Part shown: positions 26,906 through 28,173 of the stretch, piece after piece
Layout: the number at the start of each line of letters is the position of its first letter
Numbering within the stretch: the first letter of the stretch is position 1
IMG/VR virus record: IMGVR_UViG_3300015199_000015
Coordinates: 1-28,883 of that record
Strand: one strand, 5' to 3'
Source: a virus
DNA: 28,883 nt
The notes under the pieces: generated by a model
Seen by the model: the letters and a program-made list of their open reading frames with translations, nothing else
What the model was told of the DNA's origin: nothing
Database searches by the model: none
Position numbers and translations under genes: made by a program

Positions 26906-27364
26906 TTAAAGGCGTTCGAGATGGTGTAGTCCAATACCAATCGCGTCCCATACATTGTGTTGTAAGCTTCGCTGCGTCGGTAACACAATACAGGCGAGCT
27001 CCTCGTCTGTCAACTTTCCTTTGATTCGTCGGGTCATAACATCTTTAGGGGTCTGTCCTTTCCACTGTCGTGGCAGATAGATAGACACCATGGGGTGACT
27101 ATCCGCTATCATCCCAACGATAACCGCGAGCTGAATCAGATCGTTAGGGTCGCCTTTGCTGAGCCCTCGCGTGTAGACCTGTGGGAGCTCAATAGCTAGC
27201 TCGTCGGAGCGGTGCTTCCCTACCGCGAGGGCCATCGGATACCAGGCATCGAAGCCCAGGGCTTTCGGAGACCCCAGAACCAAATCGGCGCGGGTCAGAA
27301 CACCATCGCGCCAAAGTGCTACGCCACACGTTCGAAGACCAGGATCAACAGATTTTAAGATCAT
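26906..27364 (-). CDS. RuvC-like Holliday junction resolvase family nuclease
   Basis: I start at ATG 27364 (152 residues); an in-frame GTG at 27379 would add five residues. The N-terminus SVDPGLRTCGVALW carries the first acidic residue (Asp7) in the 'DPG...tG.A' motif of the RNase H-like RuvC fold. LAIELPQVY provides Glu59 of the second strand. HNVWDAIGIGL has Asp140 in the 'H..~D.~.~a' C-terminal helix motif. Three acids in order fit a two-metal resolvase. Phage versions resolve branched DNA during packaging or recombination. The third-site motif is slightly different from classical RuvC (HNVWD), so specificity is uncertain. Confidence 0.78.
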   Translation of the reverse strand: MILKSVDPGLRTCGVALWRDGVLTRADLVLGSPKALGFDAWYPMALAVGKHRSDELAIELPQVYTRGLSKGDPNDLIQLAVIVGMIADSHPMVSIYLPRQWKGQTPKDVMTRRIKGKLTDEELACIVLPTQRSLQHNVWDAIGIGLHHLERL

Positions 27365-27385
27365 GTGTAATACTATCACATTGTT

Positions 27386-27453: not shown

Positions 27454-27459
27454 AGGAGG
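27454..27459 (+). promoter_or_regulatory. AGGAGG ribosome site shared by two overlapping frames
   Basis: AGGAGG ends three bases before ATG 27463 (methyltransferase) and seven bases before GTG 27467 in the +1 frame, so a single site could serve starts in two frames. Confidence 0.65.
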
Positions 27460-27462
27460 CAC

Positions 27463-28173
27463 ATGCGTGAGTTGGCACTTTTTGGAGGAGCTGGAGGCGG
27501 TATCTTGGGCGGGACCTTGCTCGGTTGGCGCACCGTATGCGCTGTCGAGATTAATCCCTACTGTCGGCGGGTCTTACTCGCAAGGCAGCTCGACGGATGT
27601 CTCCCAAGGTTTCCTATCTGGGACGACGTTCGAACATTCGACGGAAAGCCATGGCGAGGACACGTCGACGTCATTAGCGGAGGATTCCCATGCCAGGATA
27701 TTAGCTCAGCAGGAAAAGGCAAGGGACTCGACGGCGAGCGGTCTGGATTGTGGTTTGAATTTGCCAGAATCATCGGCGAAATCAAACCGCCGCACGTCTT
27801 TATCGAAAACTCCCCTCTGCTTCGCAGTCGCGGGCTTGTCACCGTCCTGCAAAACCTTGCCGCCCTGGGGTATGATGCGCGCTGGGGTGTGCTATCCGCT
27901 GCCGACGTTGGTGCTCCGCACGTTAGAAAACGAATATGGATTGCTGCCGACACCGACAACGGTATCAAACGAACATTCAGCCAGCATGCAGAAGTGGCCA
28001 GCGCACGGTCGACTCAAGCGGTTATTTGGCCGTCGAGCGATATCCTTTCGGGAGTGGATGATGGGCTGGCCAATCGGCTGGACCGCGTTAGAGCCACTGG
28101 CAACGGGCAGGTTTCGGCAGTGGCTAGACTGGCTTGGCTAACTCTAACGTCTAACAATGTTGACGAGGAATAG
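27463..28173 (+). CDS. C5 cytosine-specific DNA methyltransferase (Dcm-like)
   Basis: The 236-residue product methylates cytosine C5 in DNA. Motif I is LFGGAGGG (residues 6-13), followed by a VEINPYC motif II. Motif IV is GGFPCQDIS with catalytic Cys77. Motif VI is IENS (Glu115), where most relatives have ENV, and VIII is VRKRIWI (155-157). Motif X is RVRATGNGQV near the C-terminus. The region between VIII and X, which holds the target recognition domain, is only about 40 residues, far shorter than in HhaI-like enzymes. The target cannot be read. It probably protects phage DNA from host restriction. A second open frame overlaps the whole gene. Confidence 0.85.
   Translation: MRELALFGGAGGGILGGTLLGWRTVCAVEINPYCRRVLLARQLDGCLPRFPIWDDVRTFDGKPWRGHVDVISGGFPCQDISSAGKGKGLDGERSGLWFEFARIIGEIKPPHVFIENSPLLRSRGLVTVLQNLAALGYDARWGVLSAADVGAPHVRKRIWIAADTDNGIKRTFSQHAEVASARSTQAVIWPSSDILSGVDDGLANRLDRVRATGNGQVSAVARLAWLTLTSNNVDEE
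27467..28141 (+). CDS. Overlapping +1 frame ORF within the methyltransferase gene
   Basis: From GTG 27467 (or TTG 27419) the +1 frame stays open for over 220 codons. Its product has segments I recognise from phage proteins commonly labelled as methyltransferase-related: WGMMRAG (27866-27886), GLLPTPTT (to 27961) and EWMMGWPIGWTALEPLAT near the C-terminus. These lie in the same DNA that encodes motif X in the other frame. Either the overlap is a real second gene or it records an ancestral frameshift in the family. GTG 27467 has AGGAGG at seven bases, ideal spacing. I have no proof of translation, so confidence is limited. Confidence 0.4.
   Translation: MSWHFLEELEAVSWAGPCSVGAPYALSRLIPTVGGSYSQGSSTDVSQGFLSGTTFEHSTESHGEDTSTSLAEDSHARILAQQEKARDSTASGLDCGLNLPESSAKSNRRTSLSKTPLCFAVAGLSPSCKTLPPWGMMRAGVCYPLPTLVLRTLENEYGLLPTPTTVSNEHSASMQKWPAHGRLKRLFGRRAISFREWMMGWPIGWTALEPLATGRFRQWLDWLG

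Follow-up and report, generated by a model that had tools for sequence, protein, structure and literature searches.

The methyltransferase locus at positions 27463-28173 of the window (the whole 28,883-nt stretch analysed, taken from a virus record) most probably encodes a two-subunit C5 DNA methyltransferase (C5-MTase), both subunits of which would be read from the same DNA in two frames and would assemble to methylate phage DNA. Judging from sequence comparisons, we assign this reading a probability of roughly 0.8. Frame 1 would yield alpha, a catalytic domain with motifs I-VIII and X, and the +1 frame, begun 4 bases downstream behind a shared Shine-Dalgarno site, would yield beta. Motif IX, and probably a portion of the target-recognition region as well, would come from beta, and the assembled subunits would form one enzyme acting on phage DNA, probably against host restriction. 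We infer that beta is produced as a protein in its own right, that it binds alpha and that activity depends on it, and likewise infer the DNA target and the anti-restriction role.

Organization of the locus

The window also codes for contractile-tail phage genes (tail sheath, baseplate wedge and endolysin). On its minus strand, positions 26906-27379 weakly matched phrog_159 (E=0.006), a family of RuvC-like Holliday junction resolvases. The features of the locus are collected in Table 1. An earlier sequence-only reading had given the correct coordinates for the methyltransferase frame and had reported that the +1 frame is open for more than 220 codons; indeed, the open run extends from 27419 to a stop codon at 28139-28141 (240 codons, or 224 from the GTG at 27467). 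Beta starts 4 bases past the alpha start and is nested in alpha over nearly its whole length. As the same reading had noted, one AGGAGG is placed to serve both starts, and WGMMRAG, GLLPTPTT and EWMMGWPIGWTALEPLAT (from 28052) all lie in the +1 frame. In alpha motif VI, ENS followed by P takes the place of the usual ENV, and the same is seen in nearly all of the window's clade (alignment A5).

Table 1. Features of the nested methyltransferase locus (positions in the window)
Feature	Position	Strand	Evidence or remark
Alpha, C5-methyltransferase frame, 236 aa; motifs I-VIII and X, without motif IX	27463..28173 (ATG to stop)	+	PF00145, phrog_363
Beta, +1 frame gene, 224 aa from GTG; carries motif IX	27467..28141	+	Stop avoidance, substitution test, kept start, motif IX match, phrog_1008
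Shine-Dalgarno site, AGGAGG	27454..27459	+	Spacer 3 to alpha ATG, 7 to beta GTG
Alpha motif IV, GGFPCQ (catalytic Cys)	27679..27696	+	Invariant in alignment A5
Alpha motif VI, ENS in place of ENV	27805..27813	+	E and N invariant in A5
Beta WGMMRAG, conserved	27866..27886	+	W134, G135 and G140 conserved in alignment A4
Alpha motif VIII, RKRIW	27925..27939	+	Both R and W invariant in A5
Beta LLPTPT element, start of TRD-like part	27941..27958	+	T162 and P163 conserved in A4
Beta motif IX, EWMMGWPIGWT	28052..28084	+	hhalign against single-chain MTase C-termini, E 3.2e-6
Alpha motif X, TGNGQV	28096..28113	+	hhalign against single-chain MTase C-termini, E 1.9e-5

Alpha is a C5 DNA methyltransferase by its match to PF00145 (E=1.2e-33) and by motifs I, IV (PCQ), VI (E) and VIII, and its PHROG match was phrog_363 (E=1.1e-61). 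The +1 translation matched phrog_1008 (7.5e-14), phrog_35493 and phrog_26627, and a tblastn search with it found 36 phage records, 14 of which were covered over at least 80% of the beta length. The likeness of the +1 frame to a recurring phage family, proposed previously, was thus borne out. Searches of beta against Pfam and NCBIfam gave no match.

Selection on the +1 frame

Stop codons were compared with a null obtained by permuting synonymous codons; the +2 frame and single-chain MTases served as controls. The first set, 80 relatives fetched by the methyltransferase frame alone, contained few stops in +1 and many in +2, even at GC 0.34 to 0.38, and showed the same pattern as the wider sets. 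Among 83 distinct genes, 140 stops were found in +1 (446 expected) and 1064 in +2 (935 expected), and 82 of the 83 distinct relatives had 200 or more consecutive open codons in +1, versus 3 of 95 control ORFs on those contigs. In the interval from motif IV to motif IX, three +1 stops were counted in 216 loci against 604.9 expected (+2: 1857 against 1779), whereas nine single-chain control loci with motif IX in frame had 40 against 54 expected in this interval; because loci were chosen by similarity, many of them by the +1 frame itself, these counts describe the window's relatives and not all C5-MTases.

The pattern of substitutions was examined as well. Changes silent in alpha introduced no new +1 stops (203 expected), and the +1 replacements they caused were milder than expected (z 15.6; +2 z 3.6, with each change counted in both directions). 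Alpha-silent changes avoid both stops and harsh replacements in beta. By region, with changes counted once, z was 6.7, 7.2 and 2.6 in +1 and -1.9, 4.5 and 0.9 in +2 for the N-terminal, middle and C-terminal parts, respectively. Some +2 signal is thus present in the middle of alpha; at alpha codons 71-160 of the relatives, alpha-silent changes were milder than expected in +2 too (z 4.5), less so than in +1. In the C-terminal part, which aligns poorly, the first codon position of alpha was slightly more variable than the third (0.316 vs 0.297 per codon), which would be expected were beta the more tightly constrained frame in that part. Pairwise +1 identity against permuted codons, the first measure used, was set aside because +2 also exceeded its null through shared descent, and the substitution test replaced it.

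These comparisons show that both frames are conserved and that the +1 frame is under its own selection. Measured against the +2 control, the +1 frame is constrained beyond the demands of alpha, as in an overlapping (dual-coding) gene pair. An overprinted pair was one of two origins suggested earlier, and it is strongly supported: +1 homologues exist, close relatives carry the frame without interruption, and the pattern of variation is not that of frame 1 only.

Conservation of the beta start codon

The +1 frame is open over 200 or more codons from +4 in 177 of 187 non-redundant relatives, and in 162 of these 177 the codon at +4 is ATG or GTG. This start codon arises because alpha codon 2 is AAT or CGT. 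Specifically, Asn at codon 2 is written AAT in 141 of 145 cases, compared with 37% elsewhere in the same genes (p 4e-55), and Arg is written CGT in 18 of 35 cases, compared with 6.6% elsewhere. In relatives whose alpha start is shifted upstream, the +4 start is often retained. Additionally, an SD-like site was found in 110 relatives, with a median spacer of 4 to alpha and 8 to beta. In a distant, C72C1-like clade, the beta start lies within alpha, in most cases as an ATG located 10 to 16 codons ahead of motif IV and often behind AAAGG-type bases, and beta is 163-306 aa long in the examples shown. In the window's relatives, codon usage at alpha codon 2 shows that the beta start codon is itself under selection.

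Division of the motifs between the two frames

Frame 1 had been credited with all main C5-MTase motifs. Motifs I-VIII and X (TGNGQV) were found there, whereas motif IX is absent from it. The C-termini of single-chain MTases from actinophage PFR2 and its relatives, in which motif IX precedes X, were built into a profile; compared with both products by hhalign, it matched beta at motif IX, over 25 columns, and alpha at motif X (E values in Table 1). Since motif IX was matched in beta and motif X in alpha, the two products look like a single enzyme divided between two frames. When both motifs were placed by pattern in 242 loci, IX lay in +1 relative to IV, with X in frame, in 241, and in frame in only one (phage PFR2). 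The profile search agreed, with in-frame motif IX found mainly in the PFR2-like set. Therefore, alpha has motifs I-VIII and X, and beta has IX; in a single-chain C5-MTase, IX would lie between VIII and X in the same chain.

The two C-terminal motifs also account for the earlier observation that shared bases give a plausible C-terminus in both frames, +1 contributing motif IX and frame 1 motif X. The second suggested origin, the fossil of a frameshift, held in part: the motif IX region does resemble an ordinary C5-MTase piece moved to the other frame, but it is no fossil, as both frames are selected now. What that reading missed is the apparent complementarity of the two products, IX in one and I-VIII plus X in the other, for which M.EcoHK31I is a precedent.

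The AlphaFold model of alpha matched the catalytic domain of M.HaeIII and M.HhaI, and the stretch between motifs VIII and X was predicted to be disordered, with very low model confidence. The model of beta was poor (mean pLDDT 55) and gave no PDB match. The N-terminal ~120 residues of beta are constrained, yet have no role in the two-subunit model.

Alternative explanations

Beta might instead be a real +1 protein that is not an MTase subunit, such as a counter-defence or regulatory factor that arose as a separate phage protein over the MTase gene. The constraint on its N-terminal part, which lies outside motif IX (z 6.7 in +1 and -1.9 in +2), and the lack of a Pfam or NCBIfam match are in line with this. 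However, beta carries exactly the motif absent from alpha, and it was not found free of the MTase frame: a search of genome and viral contigs with the +1 alignment for a free-standing +1 family yielded no clear case without the methyltransferase frame. We therefore consider such a protein unlikely.

Programmed frameshifting from alpha into +1, giving one fused protein and involving no separate starts, is much less probable still. Such a shift could reach motif IX, and in phages Catdawg and Vash motifs IX and X do lie together in +1 past the end of the alpha core; in the window, however, motif X would require a second shift back. Moreover, beta's own +4 start is kept by strong codon choice, the +1 frame is open and constrained from +4 onward, and the other clade starts beta at an ATG inside alpha. 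Scarcely credible is an open +1 frame that has no product and merely follows from base composition or from the constraint on alpha. Some GC-rich members are indeed expected to have few +1 stops (for example, 0.97 in L020), but stop avoidance, start retention and mild +1 replacements were seen across contigs of GC 0.34 to 0.69, and an accident of composition was rejected by the stop counts and the substitution test, controlled by the +2 frame and by single-chain MTases.

Distribution, evolution and annotation

The same nested second gene is present in hundreds of related phage and bacterial genes, almost always without annotation. A broader view, possible rather than probable, is that these genes belong to a large, old and mostly unannotated class of C5-MTases found in phages and bacterial genomes as well as, judging by motif layout, on an archaeal plasmid, and that in the window's clade beta was lengthened until it covered alpha almost completely, its constrained N-terminal half having a function of its own beyond motif IX. 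If so, this would be one of the longest same-strand gene overlaps in prokaryotic DNA, and one of the most widespread.

In the tree, single-chain MTases were placed inside the nested ones, under a midpoint root and biased sampling. A path from a single chain through an AquI-like split to EcoHK31I-like nesting is attractive, and the tree leaves its direction unsettled. The arrangement suggests how frameshifts could turn a single-chain enzyme into a two-subunit one. A frameshift near codon 124 disrupts the alpha frame in L094 (1129-1888) and L280 (Mycobacterium phage Llama genes 74 and 75, both annotated as methyltransferase). In L113, L142 and L227, the alpha match is interrupted at one place and the beta frame is intact, which may reflect sequencing error or loss of alpha.

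In 19 public records checked, a count that leaves aside the split genes of Catdawg, Vash and Llama, only alpha was annotated in 15, only beta in 4 and both in none. Annotation keeps one gene per DNA stretch, so half of the proposed enzyme is missing in all 19. If the two-subunit model is true, phage MTases of the window's class would lack activity when studied only through the annotated frame. In addition, the 187 non-redundant genes (177 with a full +1 frame) provide a deep natural alignment for the evolution of two proteins on shared bases. A literature search for an earlier report of a nested MTase gene in phages found none, which is weak evidence, as subscription papers lay mostly outside its scope.

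Comparison with known systems

The single-chain enzymes M.HhaI and M.HaeIII resemble alpha in its catalytic domain and differ in having all motifs in one frame. The genes of actinophage PFR2 and its relatives likewise have all motifs in one frame, with little +1 stop depletion, and their C-terminus matches beta at IX and alpha at X. The families phrog_1008, phrog_26627 and phrog_35493 match the +1 proteins, but are described as 'DNA methyltransferase' or as of unknown function, and their description text does not mention a second frame.

M.AquI is likewise a C5-MTase of two polypeptides with IX in the smaller one; it recognizes CYCGRG, and its smaller polypeptide holds motifs IX-X (as cited in PMC3404938). 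By that secondary account, IX and X are both in the smaller polypeptide of M.AquI, whereas the window has X in alpha. The M.AquI layout (I-VIII in one frame; TRD-like part, IX and X in +1) was seen in Catdawg, Vash and L360. The AquI-like split of Mycobacterium phage Catdawg involves genes 6 and 5 (L093:792-1743), and that of Streptomyces phage Vash involves genes 32 and 33 (L095:1062-2118).

The closest likeness is to M.EcoHK31I. Its small subunit, as Lee and co-workers reportedly found in 1995, is encoded in another frame inside the large one, and in the window too the small polypeptide is encoded in the other frame inside the large one. The enzyme is made of two polypeptides and recognizes YGGCCR; motifs I-VIII and X lie with the predicted TRD in the larger polypeptide, and IX lies in the smaller (Lee, Kam and Shaw 1995 as cited in PMC3404938). 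The window locus has a motif layout of this kind (I-VIII and X versus IX); the likeness claimed is one of layout and not of common descent. Relatives of M.EcoHK31I on plasmids were sought with window-type, L082 and C72C1-type queries, and none was identified as such. The division of C5-MTase motifs in the M.EcoHK31I layout is thus already known (PMC3404938). What is new, and differs from M.EcoHK31I, is a beta that begins 4 bases after alpha and overlaps it almost completely; new too is that the arrangement is widespread yet poorly annotated.
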